The notes beneath the pieces were generated by a model that was given only the letters and a program-made list of their open reading frames with translations, was not told the origin of the DNA and made no database searches. From a virus, in the IMG/VR virus record IMGVR_UViG_3300043425_000101, positions 1 to 28,904 of that record: 28,904 nucleotides of DNA; one strand, written 5' to 3'. Shown piece after piece: positions 8,424 through 21,718 of the stretch. Every line of letters begins with the position of its first letter. Positions within the stretch are counted from its first letter, which is position 1. The position numbers and the translations under genes are program-made.

Positions 8424-8645
8424 TTATCCTCCTGTTCTTTCAAAATGCAAAGGTGTCCAAATCATTCTATTCCGTATCGAAGAATATTGCCGAGTAAACT
8501 TAGTTAAAGAAATAGATCCGTCACTATGTTTGCGTATGACAAAATTATGTGTTCTATTTTTGTCAATAACTCCAAATATTTCTACTACATCAGATATTTT
8601 TTGAATTGGCTGCATAATTCGCTTGTTAGTTTTAATAAAATTCAT
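8424..8645 (-). CDS. hypothetical protein
   Basis: A 73-residue protein with an N-terminal helical part and a central beta-like stretch (HNFVIRKHSDGSISLTKFT). It is rich in Ile, Arg and Thr. The ATG overlaps the upstream TGA and the stop falls three bases before the next start, inside that gene's AGGAGGATAAATA leader. No family recognised. Confidence 0.65.
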   Translation of the reverse strand: MNFIKTNKRIMQPIQKISDVVEIFGVIDKNRTHNFVIRKHSDGSISLTKFTRQYSSIRNRMIWTPLHFERTGG

Positions 8646-8899
8646 AGCACTTTACCCGATAGTTTAGACAAAAAGATTCTTATTTCCTCTTTGAATCTTT
8701 CATCGTTAGCACGAAAAAGATAACATAACTTTTCTAATTGCTGATTAAATGATTCTTGATCAAATTCATGATAACTATTGACAACAATAAAACCATCTTC
8801 AATTAACATATCCATCAATTCATCTTTGTTAAAGTCATCTAAACTTATTTCCACTTCGACATCTACATCAGTTGATACAGTTTTATAAATGGTAGACAT
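8642..8899 (-). CDS. hypothetical protein, first gene after a regulatory gap
   Basis: An 85-residue acidic protein starting MSTIYKTVSTDVDVEVEIS. A beta-like start is followed by a helical C-terminus (QLEKLCYLFRANDERFKEEI). The ATG at 8899 is chosen over an upstream in-frame start because AGGAGA lies five bases before it. The 179 bases upstream carry no gene, so transcription may restart here. Function unknown. Confidence 0.68.
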   Translation of the reverse strand: MSTIYKTVSTDVDVEVEISLDDFNKDELMDMLIEDGFIVVNSYHEFDQESFNQQLEKLCYLFRANDERFKEEIRIFLSKLSGKVL

Positions 8900-8922
8900 A
8901 AACTCTCCTTGTAATAAATCCG

Positions 8923-8951
8923 ACAATATCACACATCAGTAATAAAAACAA
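8923..8951 (-). promoter_or_regulatory. candidate leftward promoter (TTGTTT-17-TATTGT)
   Basis: On the minus strand TTGTTT (8951-8946) and TATTGT (8928-8923) are 17 bases apart, and TGA before the -10 gives an extended -10. It faces the gene starting at 8899. Match to consensus is moderate (3 of 6 and 4 of 6). ATAAAAACAA is repeated directly at 8942-8951 and 8956-8965. The longer ATAAAAACAACAC (8956-8968) equals part of the dyad at 12362-12380. Confidence 0.3.
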
Positions 8952-9078
8952 TGACATAAAAACAACACATTACTATTGACAAAATTCTAAATTCATGCTA
9001 CTCTCATCTATATAGATAACTATATCGTAGCTTTTAACTATGTATATAACATAAGAATTATTACTAAGTTGTTATACA

Positions 9079-12310: not shown

Positions 12311-12380
12311 TGTTGCATAAATACAACACTGATGATCTATACAGTGTTGCGTAGAAACAACTGTTGTATAAAAACAACAC
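12311..12380. promoter_or_regulatory. cluster of TGTTG-N8-CAAC dyads (candidate operator)
   Basis: Three dyads lie in 70 bases: TGTTG-CATAAATA-CAACAC (12311-12329), TGTTG-CGTAGAAA-CAAC (12345-12361) and TGTTG-TATAAAAA-CAACAC (12362-12380). Facing halves of the first two also form CAACACTG/CAGTGTTG (12324-12331, 12342-12349). A fourth dyad with the same spacing lies at the capsid promoter (16863-16881). The shared half-sites with variable A/T-rich centres look like a dimer-binding operator. RNA hairpins are the alternative. Confidence 0.55.
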
Positions 12381-12500
12381 CGGGGGGAGGGTTCTGTGAT
12401 GTCCAAGTAAATTGTTGCAGCCGCTATAGCATACAAAATAGTAAAAATGAAGTATATTGCACTGCAATGTAAGTCTTTGAAAGTAAAGGTAATAATAATT

Positions 12501-12531
12501 AGGGACAGAGTAGCCAATAAAGGGACAGAGT
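12501..12531. repeat. AGGGACAGAGT direct repeats with 20-base spacing
   Basis: AGGGACAGAGT occurs at 12501-12511 and 12521-12531, exactly 20 bases apart (about two helical turns), so bound proteins would sit on the same DNA face. A shorter copy, AGGGACAGA, lies at 11619-11627. The layout is iteron-like, but two copies are few for an origin. Confidence 0.5.
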
Positions 12532-12721
12532 CGTATACGGAATTATCGCTATAGTTTTACGGAATCGGCGCACACGAAGTGGTTTATACCGTAGGGTAAG
12601 CGGAGACCTATCAAGCCGATGGAGTCCCGCACCGTAAGGGTCAACATAGTAACTATTCTGTACAAAAACAGGCGATATTGTGTAATATATGATACATTAT
12701 TGTAAAAAAGTAAGAAACTAC

Positions 12722-12750
12722 TTGACAAAAACGAAAAAGTATGATATAGT
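12722..12750 (+). promoter_or_regulatory. main late promoter (TTGACA-17-TATAGT)
   Basis: A perfect -35 TTGACA (12722-12727), a 17-base spacer and -10 TATAGT (12745-12750, 5 of 6) form a near-consensus sigma70 promoter. It should start around 12757 and drive the terminase and portal genes after a leader of about 150 bases. GCACTATATAG (12753-12763) at the start point also occurs at 12218-12228. The promoter implies transcription by host RNA polymerase. Confidence 0.78.
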
Positions 12751-12772
12751 TCGCACTATATAGAACTTTGAC

Positions 12773-12800
12773 GATTCGTTAGGGATGATTCGTTAGCGAT
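12773..12800 (+). repeat. 14-bp tandem repeat in the late leader
   Basis: GATTCGTTAGGGAT (12773-12786) is followed at once by GATTCGTTAGCGAT (12787-12800), with one mismatch. It lies about 16-44 bases after the predicted transcription start. Further on are the palindrome TTCTATAGAA (12822-12831) and a TATAGGA/TCCTATA pair (12800-12806, 12837-12843). It may be a binding site for a regulator or part of a structured leader. Confidence 0.5.
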
Positions 12801-12908
12801 ATAGGATGATTAATATACTTCTTCTATAGAACCCTCTCCTATAGCGAAAAGCCCTATATAGTAGCAAAAGCTACATTTTAACAGTCTTCCCATTAAGGAT
12901 AAAAGACA

Positions 12909-13337
12909 ATGTCTGATTCTGTCGAAATAAATACTTCCGTTGTCGAAGTAAAAAAAGAGAGACCAAAGTTAGTTCGTCGTAAAGTAGGTCGTCCGCTAAA
13001 GAAGGACATTGAGGCGAAAAAGAAGGGAAACCGTGGCAAAGTCGGTAGACCCGCCGGAGACGCAGCAAGAATCAATGAGTTCAAAGCTCGCTTGCTTGGA
13101 ACCTCCGGAGATAAGATTATTGAGACTTTGATCCACAAAGCATTAGACCCAAACGATAAGGATCAAATCGCTGCATTGAAGATGTGTGTCGATCGTGTCT
13201 TACCGCTGTCGATGTTTGACGCAGCGAAGAATAGCGGTCAAACACCACAGATCAGTATCAACATAACAGGGCTAAATAGTCCTACCGTTGATGCCGGTGT
13301 CGTCGACATGGTGCAGGAAGAAGATGACGAGTCTTAA
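12909..13337 (+). CDS. putative small terminase subunit
   Basis: A 142-residue protein immediately before the large terminase. The N-terminal half is very basic, with two AT-hook-like VGRP motifs (VGRPLKK at about 36, VGRPAGD at about 55). The central helices (GDKIIETLIHKALDPNDKDQ, then AALKMCVDRVLPLS) resemble the repeat-count and cysteine pattern of small terminases or related DNA-binding packaging factors. The tail is acidic (QEEDDES). It would recognise phage DNA for packaging. An AAGGA site lies upstream, and the end overlaps the next start by 14 bases. The role rests mainly on position. Confidence 0.68.
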   Translation: MSDSVEINTSVVEVKKERPKLVRRKVGRPLKKDIEAKKKGNRGKVGRPAGDAARINEFKARLLGTSGDKIIETLIHKALDPNDKDQIAALKMCVDRVLPLSMFDAAKNSGQTPQISINITGLNSPTVDAGVVDMVQEEDDES

Positions 13338-14583
13338 CTTTCAGCTGCTAAAATGGCAGCAAGAGGTCTTCAAAGACAAGACTCGCTTCAAGGTGATCGC
13401 TGCTGGTCGTCGCTGCGGTAAAAGCCGTTTAGCAACGATGATGCTGATCATCAAAGCATTAGAAGCACCGGAGGGGAGCGCCGTACTTTATGTCTCCCCG
13501 ACGCTCGGTCAAAGTAGACAGATTATCTGGGATAGTCTGTTAGAGATTGGTAAGCCGGTGATTAAGTCGGCACACATCAACAATCTGGACATCACCTTAG
13601 TGAATGGTCGTAAGATTCATGTTCGTGGTGCAGATAACAGCGATACCCTTCGTGGTCTCAGTCTGTATTACGCAGTATTAGACGAGTGTGCGTTTATTAA
13701 GCAGGACACTTGGGAAAAGATTATCCGAGCATCGCTCTCGGACCGTAAAGGTGAAGCGATGTTTATTTCGACTCCGTCAGGGCGGAATTGGTTCTACGAG
13801 ATGTACAAACTCGGCGTAGAGCAGGAAGACCCTGAATGGAAAGCATGGCACTTTACGACAAAAGATAATGAGACGATTGACCCAAAGGAAGTGGATGCTG
13901 CTCGCAAAACGCTTTCGTCGTTTGCATTTAAGCAAGAATACGAGGCATCGTTTGACAATGCGGGTCAGGAGATCTTCAAGGAAGAGTGGCTTCGATATGG
14001 TGAAGACCCGCAGTACGGCGACTATGTTATTGCGATCGACCTCGCTGGATTTGAGGACGTTGCTAAAAATGCGGGCGCTTCAAAGAAACGCCTAGACGAA
14101 TCCGCAATCGCCATTGTAAAAGTAGAACCACAAGGCGACTGGTTTGTAGAAAAGATTCTACATGGACGCTGGGACATTAAAGAAACAGCGAACAAGATTT
14201 TAAGGGTTGTACATGAGTATCAGCCCTCTGCAGTTGGTATCGAGCGTGGAGCCTTAAAGAACGCTGTTGCTCCTTACCTCAACGATTTAATGCGTAAACA
14301 CAATGTGTACTTCCACATCACTGATTTGACGCATGGCAACAAAAAGAAAACCGAGCGAATCGCTTGGGCGCTACAAGGTAGATTCGAGCATGGCAGAATC
14401 ACTTTGAACGAGAACGAAGATTGGAGAGAGTTAGTAGATCAGTTGCTCCTCTTCCCAACCGCTAATGTGCATGACGACTTAGTTGACGCATTGGCATACG
14501 TTGATCAGCTTGCGGTATCGAACTATCAACAGGATTATGACGACGATGACTACGAAGTATTGGATGTAGTCTCAGGCTATTAA
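13324..14583 (+). CDS. terL: large terminase subunit (packaging ATPase-nuclease)
   Basis: A 419-residue packaging motor protein starting MTSLNFQLLKW. The ATPase domain has Walker A GRRCGKS (28-34), Walker B AVLDE (117-121, catalytic E121) and motif III STPSG (149-153). The RNase H-like nuclease domain has D239 (IAIDLAG), E307 (VGIERG) and the D384-D385-x-x-D388 cluster (VHDDLVDALAY). It translocates DNA into the prohead through the portal and cuts concatemers. The ATG at 13324 is chosen over an upstream in-frame start because AGGAAG lies directly before it. The C-terminal tail is acidic (DYDDDDYEVLD). Confidence 0.96.
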   Translation: MTSLNFQLLKWQQEVFKDKTRFKVIAAGRRCGKSRLATMMLIIKALEAPEGSAVLYVSPTLGQSRQIIWDSLLEIGKPVIKSAHINNLDITLVNGRKIHVRGADNSDTLRGLSLYYAVLDECAFIKQDTWEKIIRASLSDRKGEAMFISTPSGRNWFYEMYKLGVEQEDPEWKAWHFTTKDNETIDPKEVDAARKTLSSFAFKQEYEASFDNAGQEIFKEEWLRYGEDPQYGDYVIAIDLAGFEDVAKNAGASKKRLDESAIAIVKVEPQGDWFVEKILHGRWDIKETANKILRVVHEYQPSAVGIERGALKNAVAPYLNDLMRKHNVYFHITDLTHGNKKKTERIAWALQGRFEHGRITLNENEDWRELVDQLLLFPTANVHDDLVDALAYVDQLAVSNYQQDYDDDDYEVLDVVSGY

Positions 14584-14591
14584 GGAAAATC

Positions 14592-14837
14592 ATGTACGAA
14601 AAAGAAAATGAATTTGTTCCTTTAGACTTTGAAAACCTCAGCAAAAACCCTGAAGTTTGGAAAGTCATGAAAGAAGAGATGAACTATCTCAGCGGTGAGT
14701 GTTTGATGAAAATCATCACTGCTGCTAAAGAGCAAGGTCTAAAAGACGAAGAAATCTTTTTACCAGCGATGGAAGTAACTGAAGTGGAGTTTGAAGACCC
14801 ATTCGGCGATTCTACTGAAGACGAATCTGAAGATTAA
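14592..14837 (+). CDS. small acidic protein between terminase and portal
   Basis: An 81-residue protein with a helical centre (NPEVWKVMKEEMNYLSGECL) and a strongly acidic C-terminus (DPFGDSTEDESED). It begins eight bases after the terminase stop with the AAGGAAAATC leader and ends eight bases before the portal gene. No family recognised. Position suggests an accessory of packaging or head assembly. Confidence 0.72.
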   Translation: MYEKENEFVPLDFENLSKNPEVWKVMKEEMNYLSGECLMKIITAAKEQGLKDEEIFLPAMEVTEVEFEDPFGDSTEDESED

Positions 14838-14845
14838 GGATAATC

Positions 14846-16828
14846 ATGGCTGAGAATATGAACGATAACGTATTTGAAGAACCAACTGAATCCGATCGTG
14901 AGATCGTAGACTTCGTTGTATCGCATACTGATCGCTGGAGAGACTGGCGTGATAGCAACTTTTTAGAGGATTGGAAAGAATATGAACGCATTTTTCGAGG
15001 ACAATGGTCTGCCGAAGATAGAACTCGTGAATCTGAGCGCAGCCGTATTATCTCCCCAGCGACTCAACAAGCTGTGGAAACAAGACATGCGGAAGTTTGC
15101 GAAGCCATATTCGGCAATGGAGAGTGGTTTGACATTGCTGACGACTTGGGTGATGCTGACAAACTGGATGTTGAACTCCTTAAACGACAAATCAAAGAAG
15201 ATTTAGAAAAGGATAACGCCCGAAAAGCCATCTCGCAGATTGAGTTAATGGCTGAGATTTACGGTACTGGTATCGGTGAGATTCTGGTTCAGCGTAAGCC
15301 TGAGATGATTCCTACGATGATGCCAATGCCTGACGGCACTGCAGCCTACGGCGTTATGGAAAAAGAGTATACTTGTGTTAAGCTCAGTCCTGTTAATCCG
15401 AAGAACTTCCTAATCGATCCCAATGCAACAACAATTGACGATGCGATGGGCGTGGCAATCGAGAAGTATGTGTCGATCCACAAGGTTGTCGAAGGAATGG
15501 AAAAAGGTATTTATCGCAAGGCTGACGTACAGCCAGCACCAGAAGATACCGACCTAGAGCCTACTCAACAAGTTACTCAGTTCCAAGACGACAAGGTACT
15601 GCTCTTGACCTACTACGGTCTTGCTCCTCGTGAGTATATTGAGCAACTCGAAAATGGTGATGCTGAAGTTGTAGACTTGTTCCCCGAGGACAGCACCGCT
15701 GACAAGTACAGTGACCTAGTTGAGTGCATCGTGGTTATCGCTAATGGTAGCACCTTGCTCAAGGCAGAAAAGAATCCTTACATGATGAAGGATCGTCCTG
15801 TCGTCGCTTACCAAGACGATACCGTTCCCGGTCGCTTCTTCGGTCGTGGCACTGTTGAGAAAGCCTACAATATGCAAAAGGCTATCGACGCTCAACTTCG
15901 TGCGCACTTAGACAGCCTAGCATTGACTACGGCTCCGATGGTAGCGATGGATGCTACTCGTCTACCCCGTGGCGCTAAGTTTGAAGTTAAGCCCGGTAAA
16001 GCAATCCTCACAAACGGTAATCCAAATGAAATCATGGTTCCGTTTAAGTTTGGCAACACCGATCCTGCTAACCTGACAACCAGCTCTGTGTTTGAGCGTA
16101 TGTTGCTCCAAGCCACTGGTACTGTCGACGCAGCTGGACAGCCCTCACCGTCTACTCGTGATTATCCACAAACCTCAATGTCGGTTGCTGGAATCATCAA
16201 GAAGTATAAGCGGACGCTGATGAACTTCCAAGAGGACTTCTTGGTTCCATTTATCAAAAAAGCTGCGTATCGTTTCATGCAGTTTGACCCGGAGCGTTAT
16301 CCATCAACTGATCTTAAATTTATACCGACGGCTACTTTAGGCATCATTGCCCGTGAATACGAGCAACAACAGCTTATTGCGTTGCTACAGACTCTTGGAC
16401 CTAATACTCCTGTATTGCCGATGATTCTAAAAGGTATTATTTCTAGCTCTAGTTTACCAAATCGCCTCGAAATGGAAGCTACTTTGGATCAAATGATGCA
16501 GCCTAACCCACAACAACAGGAGCTACAAGCGGTTCAAACCCAGCTTGAAGTAGCTGCAGCACAGGCTCAAATCGCTAAACTACAGTCCGAAGCCGTAAAA
16601 AACAACGCTTCAGCTCAGAAAGATGTAGTTGAGACCCAATTGATGCCGGCAGAGACCCAAGCGAAGGTAATTAGTGGTTTAAGCCAGAATATTCGTGGTC
16701 AAAACACCAGCGGAGAGTTTGAGCAAAGAGCCAAGATTGCTGAATTAGCCCTCAAAGAAGAGGATATTAAGAGCAATGAGCGTATCGCTACGCTACAAAT
16801 GTTGCAAAAACAATCAAAAAGTGCTTGA
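14846..16828 (+). CDS. portal protein
   Basis: A 660-residue portal expected to form the twelve-subunit ring through which DNA enters and leaves. The N-terminal part has the podovirus-style run RSRIISPATQQAVETRHAEV, followed by CEAIFGNGEWFDI. Central segments (NPKNFLIDPNATTIDDAMG; PGRFFGRGTVEKAYNMQKAID) are typical of portals. From about residue 545 a long helical, Gln/Ala-rich tail (QQELQAVQTQLEVAAAQAQI) runs to the end, like the barrel helix of P22-type portals. At 660 residues it is longer than T7 gp8 (536) and nearer P22 gp1 (725). The AAGGATAATC leader precedes the ATG. The stop codon lies inside the next promoter's -35 box. Confidence 0.9.
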   Translation: MAENMNDNVFEEPTESDREIVDFVVSHTDRWRDWRDSNFLEDWKEYERIFRGQWSAEDRTRESERSRIISPATQQAVETRHAEVCEAIFGNGEWFDIADDLGDADKLDVELLKRQIKEDLEKDNARKAISQIELMAEIYGTGIGEILVQRKPEMIPTMMPMPDGTAAYGVMEKEYTCVKLSPVNPKNFLIDPNATTIDDAMGVAIEKYVSIHKVVEGMEKGIYRKADVQPAPEDTDLEPTQQVTQFQDDKVLLLTYYGLAPREYIEQLENGDAEVVDLFPEDSTADKYSDLVECIVVIANGSTLLKAEKNPYMMKDRPVVAYQDDTVPGRFFGRGTVEKAYNMQKAIDAQLRAHLDSLALTTAPMVAMDATRLPRGAKFEVKPGKAILTNGNPNEIMVPFKFGNTDPANLTTSSVFERMLLQATGTVDAAGQPSPSTRDYPQTSMSVAGIIKKYKRTLMNFQEDFLVPFIKKAAYRFMQFDPERYPSTDLKFIPTATLGIIAREYEQQQLIALLQTLGPNTPVLPMILKGIISSSSLPNRLEMEATLDQMMQPNPQQQELQAVQTQLEVAAAQAQIAKLQSEAVKNNASAQKDVVETQLMPAETQAKVISGLSQNIRGQNTSGEFEQRAKIAELALKEEDIKSNERIATLQMLQKQSKSA

Positions 16829-16853
16829 CATTTTAACAAAACTGTGGTAATAT
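16825..16853 (+). promoter_or_regulatory. capsid-cassette promoter (TTGACA-17-TAATAT)
   Basis: A perfect TTGACA (16825-16830) and TAATAT (16848-16853, 4 of 6) with a 17-base spacer. The -35 box contains the portal TGA. The -10 box lies in the loop of the inverted repeat ACTGTGG (16841-16847) / CCACAGT (16857-16863). It should begin a transcript near 16860 for the genes up to the terminator at 19207, boosting scaffold and capsid output. Confidence 0.8.
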
Positions 16854-16856
16854 CAG

Positions 16857-16881
16857 CCACAGTGTTGTAATTTAACAACAC
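16857..16881 (+). promoter_or_regulatory. dyad at the capsid transcript start
   Basis: GTGTTGT (16862-16868) and ACAACAC (16875-16881) form a perfect 7-bp inverted repeat with a six-base loop at about +2 to +21 of the predicted transcript. It has the TGTTG-N8-CAACAC form of the divergent-region cluster. It overlaps the right arm of the CCACAGT repeat around the -10 box. It may be an operator or a 5' stabilising hairpin. Confidence 0.55.
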
Positions 16882-16904: not shown

Positions 16905-17162
16905 GTGGACAAAGAACTACAAAAGTATTATGACGACCGCTTTTCAATGATGGCAACGCAGGGTTGGTTAGACTTAGTCGCCGACCTCAAGGAAATGCAA
17001 AAAGCCGTTGACAACTTGATGAGCGTTCCAGATGAAAAAACGCTGTTTTTCCGTAAAGGACAATTAGACATCATTTTATGGGTGCTAACCTTACGAGATA
17101 CATCAGCAAAGGCTTACGAGCAACTTCAGAACTCGTCGGGAGACGCTTCAGATGCCTCGTAG
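16905..17162 (+). CDS. hypothetical phage protein in the capsid cassette
   Basis: An 85-residue helical protein (KYYDDRFSMMATQGWLDLVA ... FFRKGQLDIILWVLTL). The Y-Y-x-x-x-F ... G-W ... L-F-x-R-K-G-Q-L-D pattern recurs near head genes of other podoviruses, but its role is unknown. The start is GTG, supported by AAGGAG six bases upstream. It is the first gene after the internal promoter and overlaps the next gene by 11 bases. Confidence 0.75.
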   Translation: MDKELQKYYDDRFSMMATQGWLDLVADLKEMQKAVDNLMSVPDEKTLFFRKGQLDIILWVLTLRDTSAKAYEQLQNSSGDASDAS

Positions 17163-21142: not shown

Positions 21143-21718
21143 ATGTCTAGTGTTGTAATTTCAGGGGATACAAGCGGTGCTATTACAATGGCTGCACCGG
21201 CTGTTGCTGGTTCTAATACCCAAACTTTAGTCGCAGCTACAGGCACTCTTGCTCCGTTGATTGCTGGAACTGCACAAACCGCATCAGGAAGCTCAGTAGA
21301 TTTTACTGGTATTCCATCTTGGGTAAAGCGTATTACTGTAATGATTAACGGATTGTCTTATGCTGCTGCTGGCGCTGGTGTAATTCAGATTGGAACTAGC
21401 TCAGGTCTTACAACAACTGGATATTCAACCCTAAATACTGGATTAAATACAACACCAACAATTAGTGTTACAGCTATAACTAATGGGTTTTCAACACTTG
21501 CAACTTCTGCAGCTGCAGCTGTTGTTGTGGGCAAATTTGAAATAGTAAATATAAATGGCAATACATGGCTTTGTACTGGTACTTCATCACGATTTACGGA
21601 TGCAGTTACTAATATTACAAACGGAGCTGTTGCATTATCAGGAACTCTTGACCGACTTTCATTAGTAGCTACCACTAGCACATTTGATGCTGGCACTATT
21701 AACATTTTGTATGAATAA
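21143..21718 (+). CDS. fibre-like protein, paralog A
   Basis: A 191-residue beta-rich protein. The N-terminal SVVISGDTSGAITMAAPAVA is a frequent phage fibre start. The rest is one domain from SSVDFTGIPSWVKRITVMI to GTLDRLSLV ... TFDAGTINILYE. The same domain makes up most of the protein at 21904, so the two are paralogs with different N-termini. It is likely part of the tail fibre or receptor-binding set. AAAGGATAAATC precedes the ATG. Confidence 0.72.
   Translation: MSSVVISGDTSGAITMAAPAVAGSNTQTLVAATGTLAPLIAGTAQTASGSSVDFTGIPSWVKRITVMINGLSYAAAGAGVIQIGTSSGLTTTGYSTLNTGLNTTPTISVTAITNGFSTLATSAAAAVVVGKFEIVNINGNTWLCTGTSSRFTDAVTNITNGAVALSGTLDRLSLVATTSTFDAGTINILYE

Follow-up and report, generated by a model that had tools for sequence, protein, structure and literature searches.

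Two places in a freshwater bacterial virus of a podovirus family, the control region and the capsid-operon promoter, carry the same short inverted repeat, which raises the question of what recognizes it and which genome encodes the recognizing factor. The window, meaning the whole stretch of DNA analyzed here, is an IMG/VR virus contig of 28,904 bases. Its left part carries a T7-like replication module (exonuclease, single-strand binding protein, DNA polymerase, HNH endonuclease, and primase/helicase), and its right part carries terminase, portal, scaffold-like, and capsid genes, the scaffold label being based on gene position. The central 10 kb had no megablast match and no close record among phages, the named relatives of the portal and capsid are all distant, and the window gave no hits to Rfam families or in a tRNA scan. 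For comparison, 148 related viral loci were gathered by terminase and portal searches. A sequence-pattern search of 84,980 cellular genomes, which distant relatives can escape, found neither terminase relatives nor prophage relatives, and no integrase or repressor gene was recognized in the podovirus family.

Dyad A in the control region and at the capsid promoter

An earlier note on this DNA had described three copies of TGTTG-N8-CAACA with a constant eight-base spacing at 12311-12380 and a fourth copy at the capsid promoter. Both were confirmed: the cluster consists of two exact copies and one copy with a single mismatch, ending in CAACT, and the capsid copy is exact (16863-16880). The refined motif, called dyad A here, is TGTTGT-N6-ACAACA, with an A/T-rich center in most copies and a C directly after each exact dyad (12311-12328, 12362-12379, and 16863-16880). 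The window has three exact matches to TGTTG-N8-CAACA, where dinucleotide shuffles gave 0.02 on average and none of the 100 shuffles reached three. When two mismatches were allowed, the window gave 26 matches against a background of 17.8, so only near-exact copies were counted.

Copy 1 (12311-12328, TGTTGCATAAATACAACA) lies 11 nt upstream of a leftward -35 element on the minus strand, TTGACA at 12299-12294, which is followed by a weak -10 (TATTGA at 16 bp). Copy 2 (12345-12362, TGTTGCGTAGAAACAACT) carries the mismatch and shares base 12362 with copy 3; in many relatives it is intact and reads TGTTGCGTAGAAACAACA. Copy 3 (12362-12379, TGTTGTATAAAAACAACA) adjoins a G-tract, and its 18-mer recurs in unrelated phages and upstream of host outer-membrane genes. 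No strand is assigned to these three copies. Most control-region copies have no recognizable promoter alongside in a consensus promoter scan, which here and below reports consensus matches rather than mapped transcription starts, and a decoy or titration role is therefore possible.

The 13-base half-site ATAAAAACAACAC, which had been placed in front of a leftward gene, was found as an exact match at 8956-8968, upstream of the leftward gene at 8642-8932. This is not its only context, however, as a rightward TTGACA also follows it closely, at about 8978-8983. It belongs to a degenerate dyad on the plus strand (8950-8968) with one intact half (ACAACA), and in the relatives L054/G007 a full dyad stands at the orthologous position, with 8 nt between it and the -35 downstream. 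The interval 8962-8983 of the window, in which the half-site precedes promoter-like rightward sequence, lies within the leftward early region; G006 and G007 carry full dyads there.

The capsid-operon promoter (16825-16853, plus strand) consists of TTGACA (16825-16830), a 17-bp spacer, and TAATAT (16848-16853), and is kept in relatives. The capsid-operon copy of dyad A (16863-16880, plus strand, TGTTGTAATTTAACAACA) lies 25 bp before the gene at 16905 and spans about +3 to +20 of the predicted transcript. Among relatives, the dyad usually starts 8-10 nt past the -10 of a conserved TTGAC(A/T)-N17-TGTGGTAATAT-like promoter, and in L110, L113, and L126 it is centered on the -10 of the capsid promoter. 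A protein bound at +3 to +20 or on the -10 would obstruct RNA polymerase. The sixth base pair at capsid sites is T-A in 12, T-G in 9, and C-A in none, and at other sites T-A in 67, C-A in 13, T-G in 1, and T-C in 1. This pair varies on only one side at capsid sites and chiefly on the other side elsewhere, so the two halves are not equivalent, as would be expected of an oriented site or, in the capsid copies, of RNA wobble pairing. Four relatives (L007, L036, L112, and L123) have extra sequence between the portal and the next gene; the L007 insert (genome G001, 16226-16615) encodes an endonuclease-like protein.

Conservation and replacement in related phages

The spacing of the dyad was scanned in 151 loci (1.41 Mb), comprising the 148 related loci and three pieces of the window. 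The motif TGTTG-N8-CAACA is kept in these phages: spacing 8 gave 134 matches and each of the other spacings from 0 to 24 gave 0-20, these counts coming from homologous, non-independent loci. The half-sites and spacing are fixed and the center is freer. Most dyad A sites fall into one of two places. One lies ahead of the small terminase gene, at a distance of about 190-880 nt and mostly 430-630 nt, and often holds several copies; the other lies 25 bp ahead of the first gene past the portal.

In sister phages, both of these places are occupied by another palindrome, dyad B (AAGTRAG-N2-CTYACTT; AGTNA-N4-TNACT), and some genomes carry dyads A and B together. The spacing of dyad B is as sharp as that of dyad A: gaps of 2 and 6 gave 36 and 40 matches, respectively, and other gaps gave 0-10. 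The exchange of palindromes at both places argues for trans-acting proteins. In unrelated phages (L303-L379), a B-like dyad was found within 90 nt of dyad A in 6 of the 70 contexts listed, where 0.34 would be expected. The strict form of dyad B was absent from 60 Methylophilaceae genomes and its relaxed form fell below a reversed control; in the order, the strict motif occurred in 3 of 200 genomes, in all cases within ORFs, and no host regulon for B was found. The binding sequence of the nucleoid-occlusion protein SlmA is GTGAGTACTCAC (PMC3116907). Dyad B, written as AAGTRAG-YR-CTYACTT with the core GTRAGYRCTYAC, includes variants of this sequence, although the match is degenerate and the phage B sites lie in control regions and leaders; dyad A is unrelated to it. 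In the control regions of L015, L016, L017, L018, and L085, GATAG-N7-CTATC stands beside the G-tract instead of dyad A.

Dyad A in unrelated phages and in bacteria

The exact 18-mer TGTTGTATAAAAACAACA was found in more than 120 viral stretches among the matches listed, most of them not of the podovirus family. Most of the listed stretches have no relatives of the window proteins, and some of the contigs exceed 100 kb. Of the listed viral copies, 73 of 82 are intergenic. The listed matches gave 77 distinct viral contexts, a few of which belong to the podovirus family, and in 48 of these a consensus-like promoter lies within 80 nt of the dyad. Clustering of the dyad at promoters far beyond chance, for which the earlier note had proposed a test, was seen in its fixed place at the capsid promoter and in these other phages, where the promoter starts 0-9 nt after the dyad in 35 of the 48 contexts and 10-19 nt after it in 9 more (about 1 per 10-nt bin expected). 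Thus, 44 of the 77 listed contexts have the dyad 0-19 nt upstream of a consensus -35. The distances in the listed contexts group at 3-9, 13-16, and 20-23 nt, with a periodicity of about 10 bp, and the dyad center in unrelated phages is near -51 or -61. Neither random positions nor absence from relatives, which had been named as findings that would speak against a regulatory site, was seen. The downstream genes in other phages include a CobS-like ATPase and a peptidase of the kind found in T4-like cyanophages.

The same exact 18-mer was searched in the 84,980 cellular genomes and found in 61 cellular stretches, about ten of them from Methylophilaceae and close relatives. Nearly all of these ten or so copies lie upstream of outer-membrane protein genes, such as porins, mlaA (preceded by a photolyase gene), and ompW (preceded by rlmD). 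The phage 18-mer was the query for these host matches, which include homologous, non-independent loci. The general form TGTTGT-N6-ACAACA is present in 36 of 60 Methylophilaceae genomes, and copies with a fully A/T center number 29, in 23 of the 60 genomes (counted from the match table); in the wider order, 5 of 150 genomes have an A/T-centered copy. The Methylophilaceae copies for which DNA was fetched lie mostly before porins, mlaA, OmpA-like proteins, and TonB receptors, and copies with G/C-rich centers tend to fall within genes. Pfam assigned representative downstream proteins to the MlaA, OmpW, Porin_O_P, OmpA, and TonB-receptor families but left two porin-like proteins unmatched, so that some of these labels rest on signal-peptide-like starts and position. 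Upstream placement was likewise found in alphaproteobacterial single cells and in Woeseiaceae. At many host sites, in several unrelated gene families, the best promoter starts 34-37 nt past the dyad, and the commonest host arrangement has the dyad center near -81. The recurrence of the dyad sequence ahead of outer-membrane genes in bacteria and at promoters in unrelated phages goes beyond the earlier note.

Candidate regulator and competing explanations

Pfam and PHROG scans of the early proteins showed no family-wide helix-turn-helix (HTH) regulator, only sporadic HTH proteins. No DNA-binding domain was found in the early proteins of the window and of G001, although an unrecognized phage DNA-binding protein may escape such a small number of Pfam scans. 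One sporadic HTH protein of 66 aa (G006 21404-21604; L157:1404-1604, minus strand) resembles sigma-70 region 4 and KorA and has homologues in L049, L096, L044, L097, and L019. No accessory gene tracked the type of site among 19 genomes, and a literature search found no matching operator for TGTTGT/ACAACA.

The operators of the CRP/FNR family, for example TGTGA-N6-TCACA and TTGAT-N4-ATCAA, are, like dyad A, even-length palindromes. The inner half of dyad A, TTGT-N6-ACAA, resembles the FNR form TTGA-N6-TCAA in sequence and helical phasing, and both share same-face locations at promoters, such as -61.5 and -81.5. However, the outer TG/CA of dyad A is invariant, its fourth core base is T, and CRP is not usually found near -51, where dyad A is common in phages. 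The LexA/SOS box, CTGT-N8-ACAG, has a similar half-site distance, but the half-site of dyad A is TGTTGT, the flanking C is dispensable, and the host sites stand before outer-membrane genes; the LexA box and NadR/TyrR-type boxes were considered and set aside. A reading of the dyad as a terminator was also set aside, there being no T-run. As with lambda OR/OL and the mycobacteriophage L5 stoperators, several copies of dyad A occur per genome, some over promoters. Unlike those operators, dyad A comes without a recognized phage repressor or integrase and without prophage relatives found, and its sequence occurs as well at host genes and in unrelated phages.

We consider it fairly probable that TGTTGT-N6-ACAACA is the operator of a dimeric, host-encoded transcription regulator. 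The identical operator in bacterial outer-membrane upstream regions and in unrelated phages indicates that the putative protein is probably encoded by the host, and the common operator is the sole basis on which we infer the host group. The candidate regulator would bind dyad A upstream of outer-membrane promoters, with the center near -81, and in unrelated phages just upstream of the -35, with the center near -51 or -61; such same-face positions suggest an activator touching RNA polymerase. The control region of the podovirus would hold several copies, one of them adjoining the leftward early promoter. Protein bound within the promoter of the capsid operon, at +3 to +20 or on the -10, would block transcription. 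Replication of the phage DNA could then let the several copies per genome titrate the protein, by which the capsid promoter would be released. The capsid position fits a repressor and the positions in other phages fit an activator, so either one protein does both or the roles differ. The earlier note's idea that one regulator ties an early/late switch to capsid expression would be a further putative step. The motif, its conservation and positions, and its distribution in hosts and across phages are observed; protein binding, host origin, activation, repression, and titration are all steps that we infer from sequence.

Three other explanations were weighed against this host-encoded regulator. 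The regulator might instead be a phage-encoded repressor or activator that falls outside the domain libraries, with the host and other-phage copies serving a different protein of the same specificity. The sites recur within each genome and are swapped for dyad B in sisters, as in a joint change of repressor and operator, and many of the small early proteins lack an assigned function. However, a phage protein is made unlikely by the recurrence of the identical 18-mer in unrelated phages and ahead of outer-membrane genes in bacteria, by the lack of any accessory gene tracking the sites in the 19 genomes, and by the lack of a common HTH protein. A different use of a host protein is that the copies act as a decoy, soaking up an outer-membrane regulator, lowering porins and possible receptors, and thereby blocking superinfection, with control of phage promoters being secondary. 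This is consistent with the host copies upstream of porins, MlaA, OmpW, OmpA-like proteins, and TonB receptors, with the several copies per phage genome, and with the scarcity of promoters near control-region copies. We regard it as distinctly unlikely, because the copy number per genome is small and the exact placement at the capsid promoter and upstream of -35 elements points to local promoter control.

The last explanation needs no DNA-binding protein: an RNA 5' stem-loop might stabilize the capsid mRNA or mark transcript ends. The capsid leaders do have folding energies of about -7 to -11.5 kcal/mol, with a 5'-terminal stem; the sixth pair at capsid sites varies only to T-G, which can wobble, and not to C-A; and other hairpins stand at the capsid place in some sister phages. 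Most capsid copies would be transcribed, but the dyads of L110, L113, and L126 are centered on the -10, and in hosts and most other phages the dyad lies upstream of the -35, outside the transcript. Compensatory changes were looked for and none was found; C-G at the sixth pair was never seen, and degenerate copies are uncompensated. Because sites upstream of the -35 are untranscribed, an RNA hairpin is very unlikely as the general function, and a dimeric DNA-binding regulator, the reading that the earlier note had preferred, appears likely.

Extending the host-encoded reading, we tentatively suggest, as a possibility rather than an expectation, an undescribed outer-membrane regulator of aquatic proteobacteria whose operator was taken up separately by unrelated phages. 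In the podovirus family, it would act on early transcription and hold back the capsid promoter until titrated by replication, which amounts to a copy-number clock. If the host-encoded reading is right, this one short sequence would give access to an outer-membrane protein regulon of abundant, uncultured aquatic bacteria, to the predicted hosts of many phages seen only in metagenomes, and to a way in which a lytic phage with no recognized RNA polymerase of its own might use a host protein to time capsid production. Shared operators might also be used to link phages with their hosts.

The conserved G-tract region and the terminase-gene promoter

The G-tract next to copy 3 (GGGGGGAGGG, 12382-12391, plus strand) and a block further on (TTGTTGCAGCCGCTATAGCATACAAAATAGTAAAAA, 12412-12447, plus strand) are conserved in the family. 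In the control region, the centers of dyads A and B keep an almost constant distance from both elements: the center of dyad A lies 40-43 nt before the conserved block in most relatives that carry it, and most dyad B centers lie 43-47 nt before the block. The stretch 12382-12447, with GGGGGGAGGG and then TTGTTGCAGCC...CATACAAAATAGTAAAAA, is found family-wide, even in relatives without any dyad, and is possibly an origin or a weak promoter; readings of the G-tract as KOPS or as mitochondrial CSB II were considered and set aside. Further downstream, the terminase-gene promoter (12722-12763) has TTGACA at 12722-12727 and TATAGT at 12745-12750, with an extra dyad, ATATAGT-TCGC-ACTATAT, across -10/+1.
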